Origin: Psychroserpens jangbogonensis
GTDB taxonomy: Bacteria; Bacteroidota; Bacteroidia; Flavobacteriales; Flavobacteriaceae
Assembly (NCBI RefSeq): GCF_000797465.1
Contig: NZ_JSWG01000008.1
Location: 124,001 to 188,000, forward strand
DNA: 64,000 nt
Direction: 5' to 3'
Notes under the pieces: generated by a model
Databases searched by the model: none
Told to the model about the DNA's origin: nothing
The model's input: the letters and a program-made list of their open reading frames with translations, nothing else
Part shown: positions 15,229-22,371 of the stretch, piece after piece
Numbering within the stretch: the stretch's first letter is position 1
How the letters are laid out: each line of letters begins with the position of its first letter
Position numbers and translations under genes: made by a program

Positions 15229-15801
15229 ATGAAAAACAACATTTTAAAAACAGGATTTATCGTGGTATTAGCAATGACCATTGCTTCTTTCACATCAGTA
15301 TCAGAAAAAAGTGTAAACGTTAAAGAAAGCAGCATTACGTGGACTGGCCACAAAGTAACTGGATCTCATGAAGGAACCATCAATTTATCTGAAGGTGCTT
15401 TAATGTTTGAAGATGATAATTTAGTTGGTGGAAGTTTTACTATGGATATGACATCAATTGTCGTTACAGATATAGATGCAGGAAGTGGAAAAGAAAAATT
15501 AGAAGGACATTTAAAATCTGATGATTTCTTTGGAGTTAAAGACCACAAGAAGGCAATGTTCAAAATCAATAAAGTTGATGGGAAAAATGGCACATACCGT
15601 GTATATGGTGATTTAACTATTAAAGGAATATCAAAACCTGCAACGTTTCAAATGATGGTAAAAGGCAATACAGTAACAGCTAATTTCAAAGTTGATAGAA
15701 CAAAATATGACATTAGATATGGTTCTGCTAGTTTCTTTGATGATTTAAAAGACAAAGCTATTTATGATGATTTTGATTTAAATGTAACCCTAAAGTTTTA
15801 A
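15229..15801 (+). CDS. YceI family periplasmic protein
   Basis: 190 residues with a signal-like N-terminus (ILKTGFIVVLAMTIASFTSV). YceI lipocalin-like barrel: SSITWTGHKVTGSHEGTI, SFTMDMTSIVVTDID, GHLKSDDFFGVKDHKKAMF, GDLTIKGISKPATFQM, and FKVDRTKYDIRYGSASFF. The family binds isoprenoid-like lipids; the ligand here is unknown. It is the second gene after the MarR regulator and ends just before a terminator at 15831-15866. Confidence 0.93.
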   Translation: MKNNILKTGFIVVLAMTIASFTSVSEKSVNVKESSITWTGHKVTGSHEGTINLSEGALMFEDDNLVGGSFTMDMTSIVVTDIDAGSGKEKLEGHLKSDDFFGVKDHKKAMFKINKVDGKNGTYRVYGDLTIKGISKPATFQMMVKGNTVTANFKVDRTKYDIRYGSASFFDDLKDKAIYDDFDLNVTLKF

Positions 15802-15830
15802 CCCTATAACTTGATTAATAGCACATTTAG

Positions 15831-15866
15831 AAAAAAGATTCTCATTAATTTGGGAATCTTTTTTTA
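15831..15866 (+). terminator. Terminator of the marR-yceI transcript
   Basis: AAAAAAGATTC (15831-15841) and GAATCTTTTTT (15854-15864) with the T-run continuing. It is preceded at 15811-15823 by TTGATTAATAGCA, a 13-mer that recurs ahead of another terminator at 60051-60063. Confidence 0.85.
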
Positions 15867-15881
15867 TTTTGGTTGAATAAA

Positions 15882-15912
15882 TTTGAATTCTAGAAATTCA
15901 TTTCTATATTTG
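15882..15912 (+). promoter_or_regulatory. trp operon promoter
   Basis: TTTG (15882-15885), 19-bp spacer, TATATTTG (15905-15912). This matches the Bacteroidota housekeeping promoter (-33 TTTG, -7 TAnnTTTG). The transcript should start near 15917-15920, only about 8-11 nt before the leader-peptide ATG. Confidence 0.75.
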
Positions 15913-15927
15913 AATATCACAACAACT

Positions 15928-15990
15928 ATGAACACAAACTTAAATAATACTTGGTGGTGGAATTCTCGAAACTCATACTTCGTGAACTAA
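15928..15990 (+). CDS. trpL: trp operon leader peptide with three Trp codons
   Basis: A 20-codon reading frame: MNTNLNNTWWWNSRNSYFVN. It contains TGG TGG TGG at 15952-15960. Three consecutive Trp codons in a 20-residue peptide directly ahead of a terminator and trpE is the signature of ribosome-mediated attenuation. The start is set by the ATG 16 nt after the -7 element. When Trp-tRNA is scarce the ribosome would stall on the TGG triplet and cover the first RNA arm; when it is plentiful it reaches the TAA and covers the second. The peptide itself is not expected to have another role. Confidence 0.88.
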   Translation: MNTNLNNTWWWNSRNSYFVN

Positions 15991-16051
15991 CCCTATAGTA
16001 TATTTAAAATAAAATATCAAAAAGGCTTGTCATTCACGACAAGCCTTTTTT
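15963..16051 (+). promoter_or_regulatory. trp transcription attenuator
   Basis: Four pairing regions can be read. Region 1 TTCTCGAA (15963-15970) pairs with region 2 TTCGTGAA (15979-15986), seven of eight positions, loop ACTCATAC. Region 2 TCGTGAA (15980-15986) can instead pair with TTCACGA (16033-16039), extended by TAA/TTG and CCT/AGG (15988-15994 with 16023-16029), which occupies the left arm of the terminator. Regions 3 and 4 form the terminator itself. The Trp codons lie just before region 1 and the leader stop codon just after region 2, as in classical attenuators. Structure is read by eye. Confidence 0.75.
16020..16051 (+). terminator. Attenuator terminator of the trp operon
   Basis: AAAGGCTTGTC (16021-16031), loop ATTCAC, GACAAGCCTTT (16038-16048), followed by Ts. 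Eleven perfect base pairs only 12 nt before the trpE start codon; this position makes sense only if termination is conditional. Confidence 0.92.
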
Positions 16052-16062
16052 AATTTCAAAAA

Positions 16063-17463
16063 ATGAAAACATTTAGTTTATATACGCATTACAAGAAAAT
16101 ATTAGCAGACACTATAACACCTGTTAGCATTTATCTTAAGATTAGAGATAAATATCCTAACAGCATACTTCTAGAGAGTAGTGATTATCATGCTAACGAT
16201 AATAGTTTTTCATATATCTGTTTTAACCCAATTGCATCTATAAAAGTTAATGATGATATTATCGAGCAACATTATCCAGATGGAAGCTCGAAAAAGAACT
16301 ACACCAATAAAGTTTCTGTAACTGAAGAGATCCATAAATTCACAAAGCGTTTCAAAGTAAATTCAGATGCGGATTTCAAATTTATTAATAATGGGATTTT
16401 TGGTTATACAGCTTATGATGCCGTAAAGTACTTCGAAGATATTGAAATCAGTAAAAAACCAAATTCATTAGAGATTCCAGATATTTATTACGCTGTATAT
16501 CAAAACATCATCGCCATTAATCATTTTAAAAATGAAGCCTATATTTTTGCACATTGTTTTGAAACTGAAAACAATATAGATGAAATTCTACATTTGATTA
16601 GTTCAAAAAACTTTGCGTCATATAATTTTAAAACCGATTCTGATATCTCTTCAAATCTTACAGACCAAGAATATAAAGATCAAGTTGAGTTAGCAAAAAA
16701 ACACTGTGCTCGAGGTGATGTATTTCAATTGGTATTGTCTAAAAAGTTTTCTCAAAGCTATAAAGGAGACGAGTTTAATGTGTATCGAGCTTTACGAAGC
16801 ATAAATCCGTCGCCATATTTATTCTATTTTGACTATGGTGATTTTAAAATCTTCGGAAGCTCTCCAGAAGCTCAACTTGTTGTTAATAAAGGACAAGCTG
16901 AAATTCACCCAATAGCAGGAACATTTAAAAGAACTGGTAACGATGAGGAAGATCAAATCCTAGCAAAGAAACTAGCACAAGACGATAAAGAAAATGCAGA
17001 ACATGTCATGCTAGTTGACTTAGCCAGAAACGACTTAAGTCGACATGGAAGTCAGGTTAAAGTAGAAACCTATAGAGAGGCACAATTTTTCTCTCATGTG
17101 ATTCATTTAGTAAGTAAAGTCACAGGGAAAATTCATGATAATACGCCTACCATGCAAGTTGTAGCAGACACCTTTCCAGCAGGAACCTTAAGTGGTGCTC
17201 CCAAATACAGAGCCATGCAATTGATTGAAAAATATGAAAAAACTAGTAGAGCCTTTTATGGTGGAGCTATTGGTTTTATGGATTTTGAAGGCAATTACAA
17301 TCAAGCTATAATGATTAGAACTTTTATGAGTAAAAATCATAAACTCCATTGGCAAGCAGGCGCAGGATTAGTTTCTAAATCTAATCCAGAAAATGAATTA
17401 CAAGAAGTATATAATAAACTAGGTGCTTTAACAAAAGCAATAGAATTAGCAGAAGACATATGA
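16063..17463 (+). CDS. trpE: Anthranilate synthase component I
   Basis: 466 residues. Converts chorismate and ammonia or glutamine to anthranilate with TrpG. The N-terminal LLESSDYH contains the LLES motif that binds feedback-inhibiting tryptophan in TrpE proteins. The C-terminal chorismate-binding domain has GDVFQLVLSKKF, IFGSSPEAQL, HPIAGTFKRTG, LVDLARNDLSRHG, SHVIHLVSKVTG and DTFPAGTLSGAPKYRAM. First enzyme gene after the attenuator; its end overlaps trpG by 4 nt (ATGA), consistent with coupled translation of the two subunits. Confidence 0.97.
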   Translation: MKTFSLYTHYKKILADTITPVSIYLKIRDKYPNSILLESSDYHANDNSFSYICFNPIASIKVNDDIIEQHYPDGSSKKNYTNKVSVTEEIHKFTKRFKVNSDADFKFINNGIFGYTAYDAVKYFEDIEISKKPNSLEIPDIYYAVYQNIIAINHFKNEAYIFAHCFETENNIDEILHLISSKNFASYNFKTDSDISSNLTDQEYKDQVELAKKHCARGDVFQLVLSKKFSQSYKGDEFNVYRALRSINPSPYLFYFDYGDFKIFGSSPEAQLVVNKGQAEIHPIAGTFKRTGNDEEDQILAKKLAQDDKENAEHVMLVDLARNDLSRHGSQVKVETYREAQFFSHVIHLVSKVTGKIHDNTPTMQVVADTFPAGTLSGAPKYRAMQLIEKYEKTSRAFYGGAIGFMDFEGNYNQAIMIRTFMSKNHKLHWQAGAGLVSKSNPENELQEVYNKLGALTKAIELAEDI

Positions 17464-18023
17464 AAGTATTAGTAATAGATAACTACGATAGTTTTACTTA
17501 CAATTTAGTTCATTATTTCGAGGATCTAAACTGTGAAGTGACTGTAAAACGGAATGACAAATTAACCCTAGAGGAAGTAGACGCTTTTCAAAAGATCGTG
17601 TTATCTCCAGGACCAGGAATTCCAGATGAAGCTGGCCTTTTAAAAGCTATAATTAAAACCTATGCATCAACCAAAAGCATATTAGGTGTTTGTCTTGGAC
17701 AACAAGCCATTGGAGAAGTTTTTGGAGGAACACTTGTTAACCTTGATGAAGTATATCATGGTGTAGCTACTCCAGTTGAAATTACTGTTGATGATGAAAC
17801 TTTATTCAAAAACATGGGTAAAACGATTGAAGTTGGTCGCTATCACTCATGGGTTGTTAATGCAAATTTACCTGAAGTATTAGAAGCCACTTCGATTGAT
17901 AGTAACGGACAAGTAATGTCATTAAGACATAAGTTTTATGATGTAAAAGGTGTACAATACCATCCTGAATCGGTGTTGACACCAAATGGAAAACAAATTT
18001 TAGAAAATTGGATCAAGAGTTAA
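17460..18023 (+). CDS. trpG: Anthranilate synthase component II (glutamine amidotransferase)
   Basis: 187 residues, class I glutamine amidotransferase. DNYDSFTYNLVHYFEDL start, oxyanion region SPGPGIPDEAG, nucleophile Cys in GVCLGQQAIGE, and the His/Glu of the triad in YHPESVLT. Supplies ammonia to TrpE; some organisms share this subunit with p-aminobenzoate synthase, which cannot be excluded. ATGA overlap with trpE; trpD follows after 1 nt. Confidence 0.96.
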   Translation: MKVLVIDNYDSFTYNLVHYFEDLNCEVTVKRNDKLTLEEVDAFQKIVLSPGPGIPDEAGLLKAIIKTYASTKSILGVCLGQQAIGEVFGGTLVNLDEVYHGVATPVEITVDDETLFKNMGKTIEVGRYHSWVVNANLPEVLEATSIDSNGQVMSLRHKFYDVKGVQYHPESVLTPNGKQILENWIKS

Positions 18024-18024
18024 T

Positions 18025-19017
18025 ATGAAACAAGTACTTAACAGATTAATAAATCATGAAAGCATCTCAAGTGAAGAAGCCAAACGTGTATTGGTTGATA
18101 TTTCAGATGGAAAATTCAACCAAAGTCAGATTGCATCTTTCTTAACTATTTTCATGATGAGAAGTATAACTCTTGAAGAGTTACAAGGCTTTCGTGATGC
18201 ATTACTAGAACTTTGTATTCCGGTAGATTTATCAGATTTTAATGCCATTGATTTATGCGGAACAGGTGGTGACGGAAAAGACACATTTAATATTTCTACA
18301 TTAGCTTCATTTATAACTGCAGGAGCTGGAGTGAACGTTTCAAAACATGGAAACTACGGCGTATCTTCTGCATCTGGATCTTCAAATGTTATGGAAGCCT
18401 TAGGTGTGAAATTCACTAACGATGTTGATCAATTAAAACATAGTATTGATAAAGCTGGAATTTGCGTGATGCACGCACCTTTATTTCATCCAGCTATGAA
18501 AAACGTTGCTCCAATTAGAAAGGAATTAGGAGTTAAAACTTTTTTCAACATGCTTGGTCCAATGGTAAATCCATCATTTCCAAAAAATCAAATGGTTGGT
18601 GTTTTCAATCTAGAATTACAACGAATTTACGGTTACCTCTACCAAAATACAGATAAAAATTATAGCATTGTCCATGCATTAGATGGTTATGATGAGATTT
18701 CATTAACAGGAAATACAAAAATCATATCCAATACTTCTGAAACGATGTTAAAACCATCAGATTTAGACGTTCCTCAAATAGAACAACATGAAATATTTGG
18801 AGGCTCAACTGTTGATGAGGCTGCTAAAATTTTCAAAAAGATCATTAATAATAAAGGGACCGAAGCGCAAAACAATGTGGTTTGCGCCAATGCAGGATTA
18901 GCTATTGCAACTGTTAAGAAAATTACACATCAAGAAGGGTTTCAATTAGCACAAGAAAGCCTTGAAAGCGGAAATGCAAAAACAAGTTTAGAGAGATTAA
19001 TAGCGTTAAGTAAGTAA
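18025..19017 (+). CDS. trpD: Anthranilate phosphoribosyltransferase
   Basis: 330 residues. Transfers the phosphoribosyl group from PRPP to anthranilate. Signature motifs: DLCGTGGDGKDTFNISTLA (PRPP-pyrophosphate binding), KHGNYGVSSASGSSNVMEA, and the Mg-binding HALDGYDEISLTG. Separate from trpG, unlike the TrpGD fusion of enterics. Its stop codon overlaps the trpC start codon by one base (TAATG). Confidence 0.97.
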   Translation: MKQVLNRLINHESISSEEAKRVLVDISDGKFNQSQIASFLTIFMMRSITLEELQGFRDALLELCIPVDLSDFNAIDLCGTGGDGKDTFNISTLASFITAGAGVNVSKHGNYGVSSASGSSNVMEALGVKFTNDVDQLKHSIDKAGICVMHAPLFHPAMKNVAPIRKELGVKTFFNMLGPMVNPSFPKNQMVGVFNLELQRIYGYLYQNTDKNYSIVHALDGYDEISLTGNTKIISNTSETMLKPSDLDVPQIEQHEIFGGSTVDEAAKIFKKIINNKGTEAQNNVVCANAGLAIATVKKITHQEGFQLAQESLESGNAKTSLERLIALSK

Positions 19018-19802
19018 TGGATATTTTAACTAAAATAATAAACGACAAACGCATCGAAGTTAATCTTCGAAAGCAACTCATTCCAACCAAACAATTGGAG
19101 CAATCTGTTTTGTTTGAACGCAATACAGTTTCATTAGCTAAAAGACTTCGACATAGTAACACAGGTATTATTGCTGAACACAAACGACGTTCACCATCAA
19201 AACACGTTATCAATCATGATTTAAATGTGTATGATGTCGCAAGAGGTTATGAAAACGCAGGTGTTTGTGGCATGTCTGTTCTTACCGATGGAAAATATTT
19301 TGGTGGAAGTTTAGACGATTTGCTAACAGCACGTTCCAGTTGTAATTTACCTTTACTTCGAAAAGAATTTATAATTGATGACTATCAAATACTAGAAGCC
19401 AAAGCATATGGAGCTGATGTCATTTTATTGATAGCAGCAATTTTAACGAGAGATGAAATCAAGCAATTTTCAGAATTTGCAAAGCAATTACAATTAGATG
19501 TATTACTTGAAATTCATAATGAAGAAGAACTTAATAAATCGATTATGCTAAGTATAGATATGCTAGGTGTGAACAATAGAAATCTGAAAACTTTTGAAGT
19601 CAGTCTAGAAACGAGTAAACAATTAAGTGAATTGATTCCTAACGATTTTGTAAAAGTGTCAGAAAGTGGCATTAGCAGTATTGAAGCCATTAAGATATTG
19701 CAACCTTTTGGCTACAAAGGATTTTTAATTGGTGAAAATTTCATGAAAACCGATAATCCAGGAGAGCATGCTTCTCAATTTATTAAAAACTTACAATTAT
19801 GA
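19017..19802 (+). CDS. trpC: Indole-3-glycerol phosphate synthase
   Basis: 261 residues, (beta/alpha)8 barrel. Catalytic Lys/Glu elements: EHKRRSPSKH near strand 1, SVLTDGKYFGGS, LPLLRKEFIIDDYQI, GADVILLIAAIL, LLEIHNEEEL, LGVNNRNLKTF, VSESGI and GFLIGENFM. Makes indole-3-glycerol phosphate from CdRP. Not fused to TrpF, which follows as its own gene with a 4-nt overlap. Confidence 0.97.
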   Translation: MDILTKIINDKRIEVNLRKQLIPTKQLEQSVLFERNTVSLAKRLRHSNTGIIAEHKRRSPSKHVINHDLNVYDVARGYENAGVCGMSVLTDGKYFGGSLDDLLTARSSCNLPLLRKEFIIDDYQILEAKAYGADVILLIAAILTRDEIKQFSEFAKQLQLDVLLEIHNEEELNKSIMLSIDMLGVNNRNLKTFEVSLETSKQLSELIPNDFVKVSESGISSIEAIKILQPFGYKGFLIGENFMKTDNPGEHASQFIKNLQL

Positions 19803-20434
19803 AATTAAAGATCTGTGGAATGAAAAATGAAGGCAACATTTTAAATGTTGCCAAATTAAATCCAGATTTTATGGGTTTCATTTTCTACAAAAATTCGCCA
19901 CGCTATTTTAATAGTGTAATTCCAGAATTACCTGAGGGCATTAAAAAAATTGGAGTATTCGTTGATGCAACTTTTGATTACATAAAAGGTATTGTGGGTA
20001 AACATAATTTACAAGGTGTGCAATTACATGGTAACGAATCTCCAGAACTATGTAAACAACTACAAGATTTGGATTGTACAGTAATAAAAGTGTTTTCTAT
20101 AAAAGACACCTTTGACTTCAAAAACCTAGAGCCTTACGAAGACGCTTGTGATTACTATTTATTCGATACAAAAGGGAAACAACCAGGAGGAAATGGTTTC
20201 ACTTTTGATTGGAGTGTTTTAAAAAAATACTCATCAATAAAACCATTTTTTTTAAGTGGTGGTATTGGACCTAATGAATTAGAAAATTTGTTGTCATTTC
20301 TAAAAAGACCTGAAGCAATTTTTTGCCACTCATTAGATTTAAATAGTAAGTTCGAAACTAACTTAGGATTGAAAAATACAGAAAAATTAAAAGCATTTAA
20401 AGATCAACTTATAGCGAACAATTATGACGTATAA
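19799..20434 (+). CDS. trpF: Phosphoribosylanthranilate isomerase
   Basis: 211 residues, (beta/alpha)8 barrel. [11 protein letters not shown] carries the catalytic Cys, [13 protein letters not shown] is typical, [13 protein letters not shown] and [16 protein letters not shown] follow (catalytic Asp), and FFLSGGIGP binds phosphate. Overlaps trpC by 4 nt and trpB by 11 nt, the tightest packing in the operon, so translation is probably coupled. Confidence 0.96.
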
Positions 20435-21605
20435 TATTGACGACAAGGGCTACTATGGAGAATTTGGAGGTGCATATATTCCAGAAATGCTGTATCCAAA
20501 TGTAGAAGAATTGCGACTAAACTATCTGAAGATAATGGCTGAGCCTTCTTTTAAAAAGGAATTTGATCAGTTACTAAAAGATTATGTTGGACGTCCTTCT
20601 CCACTCTATTTTGCAAAACGACTTAGCGAAAAATATAGCACAAAAATTTATCTAAAACGTGAAGATTTAAATCATACAGGAGCACATAAAATCAATAATA
20701 CAATTGGTCAAATTTTAGTGGCTCAGCGTTTGGGCAAAACTAGAATCATTGCCGAAACTGGAGCTGGACAACATGGTGTTGCTACAGCAACGGTTTGTGC
20801 TTTAATGGGACTAGAATGCATCGTTTATATGGGAGAAATTGACATTGCACGTCAAGCGCCAAATGTGGCTCGTATGAAAATGTTAGGTACAAAAGTAAGA
20901 CCAGCTTTATCTGGAAGTCGCACTTTAAAAGATGCTACTAATGAAGCTATTCGTGATTGGATTAATAATCCTTTAGACACACATTACATTATTGGAAGTG
21001 TGGTAGGTCCACATCCTTATCCAGATATGGTCGCTCGTTTTCAATCTGTTGTTTCTGAAGAAATTCAATGGCAACTTAAAGAAAAAGAAAACACCACCAA
21101 ACCAGATTATGTTATAGCTTGTGTTGGTGGAGGAAGTAATGCTGCTGGTGCATTTTATCATTATTTAGACGATACAGACGTTAAACTCATTGCTGTAGAA
21201 GCTGCAGGAAAAGGCATTCATAGCGGAGAAAGTGCTGCCACATCAGTTCTAGGTCGTGAAGGTATTATTCATGGAAGTAAAACATTGTTGATGCAAACAA
21301 GCGACGGACAGATAACTGAACCCTACTCTATTTCTGCTGGTTTAGATTATCCAGGTGTTGGACCAATGCATGCGCATTTGTACAAATCTGGACGTGCAGA
21401 GTTCATGTCTATTACAGATAACGAAGCCATGATTGCTGGCTTAGAATTAAGTCAATTAGAAGGTATAATTCCTGCCATTGAAACATCACATTCGTTAGCC
21501 ATTTTTGAAAAAAAGAAGTTTACAGCAGATGACATCGTAATTATTAACCTATCTGGTCGAGGCGATAAAGATTTACAAAACTATATTGATTATTTTAAAT
21601 TGTAA
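20424..21605 (+). CDS. trpB: Tryptophan synthase beta subunit
   Basis: 393 residues, PLP enzyme joining indole and serine. [15 protein letters not shown] start; PLP-binding Lys in [29 protein letters not shown]; phosphate loop [22 protein letters not shown] and [10 protein letters not shown] at the end. Full-length single-copy type; the start codon lies inside the end of trpF. The alpha subunit gene starts 1 nt after its stop, as expected for a 1:1 complex. Confidence 0.98.
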
Positions 21606-21606
21606 A

Positions 21607-22371
21607 ATGAACAGAATAAACCAAAAACTAACAGAAGACAAAAAGTTACTATCCATATACTTTTCAGCAGGATATCCAAGTCTACACGATACGGTTTCAA
21701 TCATAGAAAATCTTGAAAAATGTGGTGTTGACATGATAGAAATCGGATTACCTTTTAGTGATCCATTGGCTGATGGACCAACAATTCAAGCAAGTTCTAC
21801 TCAAGCTTTAAAAAATGGAATGACTTCAGAAATACTATTTGATCAATTAAAAGGTATTCGAAATACGGTTTCTATCCCTTTGATTATTATGGGTTATTTT
21901 AATCCGATGTTACAATATGGCGTTGAAGCTTTTTGCAAGAAGTGTCAGGAAATTGGTATTGACGGACTCATAATTCCTGACTTACCAGTAGATGTTTACA
22001 ACGAACAATATAAAACTACTTTTGAAAAATATGATTTAATTAATGTGTTTCTAATTACACCTCAAACATCAGTAGAACGGATTCGCTTTATTGATTCCAT
22101 TTCAAATGGTTTTATTTATATGGTAAGCTCAGCCAGTGTCACAGGAAGTAGTTCAGGTTTTGGAGATGAACAAACAGCTTACTTTAAACGCATTGCAGAT
22201 ATGAATCTTAAAAACCAGCAAATTGTAGGGTTTGGAATTTCAAACAACAACACTTTTAGTCAAGCCACACAATATGCTAAAGGCGCTATAATTGGAAGTG
22301 CATTTATAAAACACCTATCTGATAAGCCAATTCATAAAATAGACGAATTTGTATTATCTATAAATAATTAA
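21607..22371 (+). CDS. trpA: Tryptophan synthase alpha subunit
   Basis: 254 residues from ATG 21607 (MNRINQKLTEDKKL); a longer frame begins upstream at a TTG inside trpB and is rejected. Splits indole-3-glycerol phosphate to indole. MIEIGLPFSDPLADGPTIQ includes catalytic Glu and the family signature; IIPDLPVDVYNEQ holds the catalytic Asp; YMVSSASVTGSSSGF and VGFGISNNN bind phosphate. Last gene of trpEGDCFBA. Confidence 0.97.
   Translation: MNRINQKLTEDKKLLSIYFSAGYPSLHDTVSIIENLEKCGVDMIEIGLPFSDPLADGPTIQASSTQALKNGMTSEILFDQLKGIRNTVSIPLIIMGYFNPMLQYGVEAFCKKCQEIGIDGLIIPDLPVDVYNEQYKTTFEKYDLINVFLITPQTSVERIRFIDSISNGFIYMVSSASVTGSSSGFGDEQTAYFKRIADMNLKNQQIVGFGISNNNTFSQATQYAKGAIIGSAFIKHLSDKPIHKIDEFVLSINN

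Follow-up and report, generated by a model that had tools for sequence, protein, structure and literature searches.

A predicted ribosome-mediated attenuator of the Bacteroid-trp family upstream of the trp operon of Psychroserpens jangbogonensis

Layout of the trp locus

The window analysed here, a 64-kb stretch of the Psychroserpens jangbogonensis genome, carries the operon trpEGDCFBA on its forward strand (16063..22371), as assigned from open reading frames and NCBIfam models. Scores above the curated cut-offs identify trpG (17460-18023, trpG_papA subfamily), trpD (18025-19017), trpC (19017-19802), trpB (20424-21605) and trpA (21586-22371), all on the forward strand. On the same strand, trpE (16063-17463) and trpF (19799-20434) have their own families as best matches, at scores under the curated cut-offs. 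The nearest named relatives of TrpE, among the best 80, come from Psychroserpens (at most 91% identity) and Olleya (89%), both Flavobacteriaceae. Because the preceding gene ends at 15801 and has a terminator-like hairpin of its own behind it (15830-15865), the trp leader is probably the start of a separate transcription unit.

A sequence-only reading of this DNA had proposed a ribosome-mediated attenuator ahead of trpE, and its individual parts can be located. The promoter that it named is present at 15882..15912 of the forward strand, where TTTG (15882-15885) is followed by a 19-nt spacer and by TATATTTG (15905-15912). This TTTG-19-TATATTTG arrangement is a predicted Bacteroidota housekeeping promoter whose box is common in relatives; a sigma-70 promoter scan, with a model that is uninformative for Bacteroidota, reported sites more rarely than in shuffles. 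From the box to the leader ATG the gap is 15 nt, which places the predicted transcription start at about 15917 and gives the window's own leader a 5′ UTR of 11 nt. The 20-codon leader frame with three Trp codons also reads as described: it spans 15928..15990 on the forward strand, encodes MNTNLNNTWWWNSRNSYFVN and ends in TAA at 15988-15990. Its TGG TGG TGG run (15952..15960), which is kept in relatives, is the predicted sensing site. Short ATG frames of 6-40 codons with a Trp-Trp run number five on both strands of the whole window, the trp leader included, a count that corresponds to a chance rate of about 0.013 per 330 nt of one strand.

Downstream of the leader frame, RNAfold places an intrinsic terminator (pairing 3:4) at 16019..16050 on the forward strand, with a 6-nt loop and a following T run. 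It extends the 11-bp stem noted earlier to 13 bp, pairing 16019-16031 with 16038-16050, and ends 12 nt before the trpE ATG at 16063; a terminator scan reported the same palindrome on the opposite strand only. The minimum-energy fold, the check that had been suggested, contains this terminator together with a 1:2 hairpin at 15940..16007 on the forward strand. Here the earlier description was right in part: the inner stem that it gave for 1:2, 15963-15970 with 15979-15986, is found (7 bp with one mismatch) but forms only the tip of a longer hairpin whose outer stem pairs 15940-15958 with 15990-16007. The Trp codons are partly paired within this hairpin in the minimum-energy fold. Region 2, the antiterminator arm (15980..15994, core TCGTGAA at 15980-15986), and region 3 (16023..16039), which runs from within the terminator 5′ arm across the loop into the first two bases of the 3′ arm, were defined on the forward strand by RNAduplex, folding and relatives. 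RNAduplex returned a 2:3 pairing identical to the one first proposed, 15980-15994 with 16023-16039, at 13 bp (7+3+3) and -11.4 kcal/mol. The leader as a whole folds with z = -7.4 and none of 200 shuffles is as stable, a value that owes much to the terminator, because 15955-16036 alone gives z = +0.2.

Membership in the Bacteroid-trp family

The leader matches the Rfam family RF01692 (Bacteroid-trp) at 15908..16031 of the forward strand with 62.4 bits against a gathering threshold of 49, over the full model (positions 1-131). This is the sole Rfam match over gathering in the 64-kb window, and a genome search with RF01692 returned no second match beyond the trp leader. Besides the score above gathering, the position fits the family, with the trpE of trpEGDCFBA 12 nt past the terminator. 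Several other Rfam models also touched the leader and were rejected: Atu_C9, Thr_leader, AbsR25, mir-4000, MicC, STnc390 and NrrF all score under gathering and all span the generic terminator hairpin.

Rfam describes RF01692 as 'Bacteroidete tryptophan peptide leader RNA', which agrees with the leader in the window. As aligned, the structure in the model comprises the 1:2 hairpin only, its consensus hairpin coinciding with the 1:2 stretch; it is without the 3:4 terminator and the 2:3 antiterminator, and its match ends at 16031, the end of the terminator 5′ arm. In surveys whose family, order and phylum samples overlap and whose search filters lose weak matches, RF01692 was found at E ≤ 0.001 in 208 of 299 genomes of the family sample, 184 of which score over the cut-off; the order sample gave 33 of 196 genomes and the phylum sample 30 of 296, 28 of the last from Flavobacteriaceae.

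The sequence-only reading was unsure whether such a leader had been described for flavobacteria. It has: the trp leader of the window is an already described RNA family and reading, not a new one. Table 1 of Weinberg et al. 2010 (PMC2864571) enters Bacteroid-trp as a Bacteroidetes RNA with 'y' for RNA and 'y' for cis-regulatory. A passage of PMC6414381 (2019) notes the Bacteroid-Trp RNA as conserved upstream of the Flavobacterium psychrophilum trp operon and compares it with the Escherichia coli leader, and the F. psychrophilum transcriptome study PMC9723704 (2021) reports strong indications of attenuation by leader peptides ahead of operons for amino-acid biosynthesis. A comparative attenuator survey by Lopatovskaya et al. 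2010, seen as a reference in PMC4833913, may overlap with the comparison made here.

Trp codons are conserved upstream of trpE

We assembled 71 RF01692-positive loci, comprising the window's own, the 30 best and 40 plus-strand rows among the family matches. An ATG frame with a Trp-Trp run is present in 70 of these, and the remaining locus (L044) has a frame of the same kind with a GTG start. Trp conservation in this set is partly circular because the model itself contains UGG codons, and we therefore carried out two reverse tests that start from TrpE.

The first covered 30 genomes, 29 of them RF01692-negative. Of the 30 genomes, 4 had no TrpE match and 7 had weak matches only (E 1e-49 to 1e-27), which we took as other chorismate enzymes and set aside; L088 was excluded as belonging to an RF01692-positive genome in which trpE is not the first gene. 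The negatives gave 18 full TrpE loci, from which L074, at a contig edge, was dropped. A Trp-Trp leader lies at most 330 nt upstream in 16 of the 17 loci left, the exception being L090, which has trpE and no such leader within that distance. RF01692 accordingly misses related trp leaders, of which these 16 found upstream of TrpE are examples.

In the second test, which took the best 80 TrpE relatives in named genomes, 2 loci were lost for want of upstream sequence. Of the other 78, 71 carry an ATG-started leader with a Trp-Trp run no more than 330 nt away, three Trp codons being present in 70 of them. The remaining seven are explained by one TTG start and six loci without a leader in range; of these six, one is cut by a contig end with the leader tail still visible, and five have a GIY-YIG gene before trpE. 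As controls, the reverse strand gave such a leader in 0 of 78 loci and the interior of trpE in 1 of 80. The conservation of TGG codons in relatives, a check put forward with the original reading, is thus borne out (70/71, 16/17 and 71/78 loci).

The comparisons below use 86 leaders, 70 from RF01692-positive loci and 16 from RF01692-negative genomes, leaving out L044 with its GTG start. Their Trp run has three codons in 75 and two in 11.

A predicted antiterminator that captures the terminator loop

By a strict rule, which drops L025 and L038, a terminator was detected in 84 of the 86 leaders. A 2:3 core helix, defined as at least 4 contiguous pairs, is present in 83 of these 84, with at least 6 contiguous pairs in 78 of the 83. 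When the 2:3 score was compared with 50 mononucleotide shuffles of the upstream stretch, at most two shuffles reached it in 78 of 84 leaders and none did in 50 of 84. The RF01692-negative genomes contribute 16 leaders, of which 11 reach the mark of at most 2 in 50 and 5 do not; the loci without a clear win over shuffles are L077 (which lacks the core helix), L082, L083, L084 and L089, together with one RF01692-positive locus.

The common 2:3 core pairs TCGTGA with TCACGA. Region 2 lacks CGTG in 13 loci with the pairing retained; L035 and L075 carry a one-sided change to a G-U pair, and both arms are changed together in L039 (TCGCAAT/ATTGCGA), L080, L085 (GCGAG/CTCGC) and L086, the last with GGATTCAG/CTGAATCC alongside an unrelated terminator. 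These changes are counted on related sequences and are not independent events. With that reading of the counts, the covarying stems that had been called for are present: an alternative antiterminator that excludes the terminator is kept or compensated across relatives.

Spacing relative to the leader frame is also constrained. Counted from the first base of the final Trp codon, region 2 starts after 19-22 nt in 75 of 83 loci (range 17-27), and the stop codon falls anywhere from 15 nt ahead of to 26 nt beyond the point where region 2 begins. If a ribosome is taken to cover about -15 to +12 nt, region 2 stays exposed in all 83 loci when the Trp codons are occupied (it starts more than 15 nt past the first base of the last of them). 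A ribosome at the stop codon overlaps region 2 in every locus except L083 and L089 (81 of 83). The geometry therefore suits the earlier proposal that the placement of Trp and stop codons would decide whether region 1 or region 2 is covered.

Of the terminator, the strong block of 2:3 takes in 4 or 5 loop bases (67 of 83 loci) and 2 or 3 bases from the 3′ arm (71 of 83). In the window, the strong 7-bp block falls on the loop and the start of the 3′ arm, and the weaker block (3+3 bp) on the 5′ arm.

Separately, L086, L087 and L089, all from RF01692-negative genomes, keep the Trp run while their terminator and region 2 are unrelated in sequence to the others, so that the same logic is seen with replaced sequence.

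Folding of the growing transcript

Growing window transcripts were folded with their 5′ parts hidden by a ribosome, as a thermodynamic sketch rather than a kinetic simulation. With no ribosome, 1:2 forms and then the terminator, and the probability of 2:3 is at most 0.02. With a ribosome on the Trp codons (RNA hidden to 15964, 15970 or 15975), 2:3 reaches probabilities of 0.79-0.96 for RNA ends at 16038-16042, and at RNA end 16044 it competes with the terminator. With a ribosome at the stop codon only the terminator forms, and the probability of 2:3 is 0. For RNA ends at 16046 and beyond, 2:3 is less stable than the terminator in all of the states folded. The switch must for this reason be kinetic and depend on polymerase speed, and the design, as modelled, would therefore work as a race between 2:3 and the terminator.

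Leader starts close to the promoter box

The box TAnnTTTG occurs within 70 nt upstream in 83 of the 86 leaders, and a Shine-Dalgarno-like word (GGAG, GAGG or AGGA) stands at the usual place in 3 of 86. In F. psychrophilum, TAnnTTTG spans -12 to -5 according to PMC9723704, so that a box-to-ATG gap of 4 nt makes the ATG +1; the same source gives 5.5% of mRNAs as leaderless. With the shortest Trp frame, 21 of 83 leaders have a gap of 4 or 5 and none has one of 0-3, 6 or 7; with the longest frame that starts at or after the predicted +1, a gap of 4 or 5 is seen in 22 of 83 and one of 7 in a single leader. L006, L007, L061, L079, L080 and L082 are among the 21, and leaderless or one-base-leader translation of the leader peptide is predicted for them. 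Within open-licence PubMed Central, the material consulted held no report of the 2:3 pairing or of leaderless leaders for Bacteroid-trp.

Neighbouring genes and other leaders

A small GIY-YIG nuclease gene (PF01541) lies between the trp terminator and trpE in 5 of the 78 TrpE loci of relatives: L163 (140-433), L165 (170-454), L190 (140-436), L191 (139-435) and L195 (160-366, where the copy looks shortened). Hairpin-like short repeats of the CGGAAAT and CCCGCC types flank these genes, and on the far side of the gene a leader, a leader tail or at least a terminator is visible in the five loci. The gene looks like an insertion into an attenuated trp operon and would fall under Trp control.

A search for leaders beyond trp in the same genome covered pheA and hisG. 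Upstream of the prephenate dehydratase gene, on the reverse strand of contig C4 at about 2125-2178, lies a candidate second attenuator (L102), in which the leader MNTINNTYYSWFYFFFS precedes a terminator that lies just ahead of pheA. An aromatic-rich leader, scored as at least 3 Phe without a chance control, occurs in 20 of 22 pheA loci and in 17 of 17 of the genus; the exceptions are L105, which has none, and L103, which was left unparsed. HisG (PF01634) had no match in this 99.97% complete genome, and 13 of the 14 control genomes did match. This absence is tentative, because the one control without a match was Bacillus subtilis, which carries hisG. In the literature, a passage of PMC9723704 lists pheA among conserved 5′ elements without Rfam matches, and PMC7366714 describes short frames reminiscent of leader peptides in Bacteroides thetaiotaomicron, trp not being named in the relevant passages.

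Alternative modes of control

The hairpin and T run end 12 nt ahead of trpE and so lie near its start region, an arrangement that would also suit a leader acting through the trpE translation start or through Rho, with the hairpins tuning translation or stability and not termination. A trpE-like start was found downstream in 67 of the 70 RF01692-positive leaders (the motif failed in L002, L025 and L048), and in the 66 loci with an assigned start the distance from leader stop to trpE varies from 64 to 169 nt while the terminator and the spacing from Trp codons to region 2 are kept. In the five genomes with a GIY-YIG gene, moreover, that gene separates the attenuator from trpE. Both observations speak against control at the trpE start, which we regard as very improbable.

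In other phyla, trp genes are controlled by TRAP or T-boxes, and the terminator before trpE could equally serve a Trp-binding protein or direct binding of Trp or tRNA (TRAP-like, T-box or riboswitch), the leader frame then being incidental. Searches of the genome gave 0 matches to TRAP (PF02081), for which the Bacillus subtilis control matches, and 0 to the T-box (RF00230), for which control genomes match; no TrpR match was found either, again with matches in control genomes. Control of the trp operon by TrpR, TRAP or a T-box is thus unsupported. An incidental frame also fits poorly with L086, L087 and L089, in which tandem Trp codons persist despite different terminator and region 2 sequences, and we hold a mechanism of this type to be extremely improbable. 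Finally, terminator-like sites are common (6 in 7 kb versus 2.8 in shuffles), but a constitutive leaky terminator without regulation, preceded by a chance ORF with Trp codons, is contradicted by the comparative data, namely a chance frame rate of about 0.013 per locus against the 71 of 78 seen and the compensated 2:3 pairs, and we give it next to no credence.

Discussion

The locus combines a short leader with tandem Trp codons, predicted to be translated, and a terminator before the first structural gene. Sequence, comparison and folding show the leader parts and how they are conserved, the compensation within pairings, the spacing and the folding order, and we are highly confident that 15882-16062 is a ribosome-mediated transcription attenuator of trpEGDCFBA and a member of Bacteroid-trp. 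The original reading is thereby supported, as far as sequence can do so, by conserved Trp codons and by pairings that are kept or compensated. We infer that the leader is translated, that ribosomes stall on it and that readthrough tracks the charging of Trp-tRNA.

In the proposed mechanism, RNA polymerase would begin at about 15917 and a ribosome would translate the 20-codon leader. When charged Trp-tRNA is ample, the ribosome would reach the stop codon and cover region 2, leaving the 3:4 terminator to form before trpE. When it is scarce, the ribosome would stall on the three Trp codons and cover region 1, and region 2 would then capture the emerging terminator loop and the start of the 3′ arm. 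This 2:3 pairing would delay the terminator while polymerase passes the T run, so that the operon is transcribed. If no ribosome is loaded, 1:2 would form and termination would be the default.

It is possible, rather than probable, that flavobacterial trp attenuators in general use a loop-capture antiterminator and that about a quarter of the loci combine it with leaderless or nearly leaderless translation of the leader (ATG at +1 or +2). Under such a scheme region 2, mostly 19-22 nt from the last Trp codon, would block nucleation of the terminator and not merely tie up its 5′ arm, and in the leaderless cases ribosome loading would be coupled to transcription start without a Shine-Dalgarno site. 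In the window itself the loop-capture pairing is present, and the predicted 5′ UTR measures 11 nt.

What this analysis would add to a known family is comparative support for the 2:3 pairing, together with the side observations. The comparisons give independent support to the view that trp genes are regulated by attenuation, which has translation close behind transcription, in a bacterial group not dependent on Shine-Dalgarno sites. The pairing supplied here is missing from the Rfam RF01692 model, and a corrected model should recover members that are currently missed. The apparently leaderless leaders may offer a simple system for studying ribosome loading on nascent Bacteroidota transcripts.

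For the F. psychrophilum trp leader, the relevant passages of PMC6414381 and PMC9723704 give no pairing model, unlike the account presented here. With E. coli trpL the leader of the window shares its Trp codons and its four-region logic. Enterobacterial trpL likewise carries Trp codons and four RNA regions, and terminates at high Trp. Its 2:3 pairing in E. coli sits mostly on the 5′ arm of the terminator, whereas in the window the strong 7-bp block of 2:3 spans the terminator loop and the beginning of the 3′ arm. The flavobacterial leaders differ further from E. coli in that a Shine-Dalgarno-like word precedes only 3 of 86 of them and in that no TrpR was detected.
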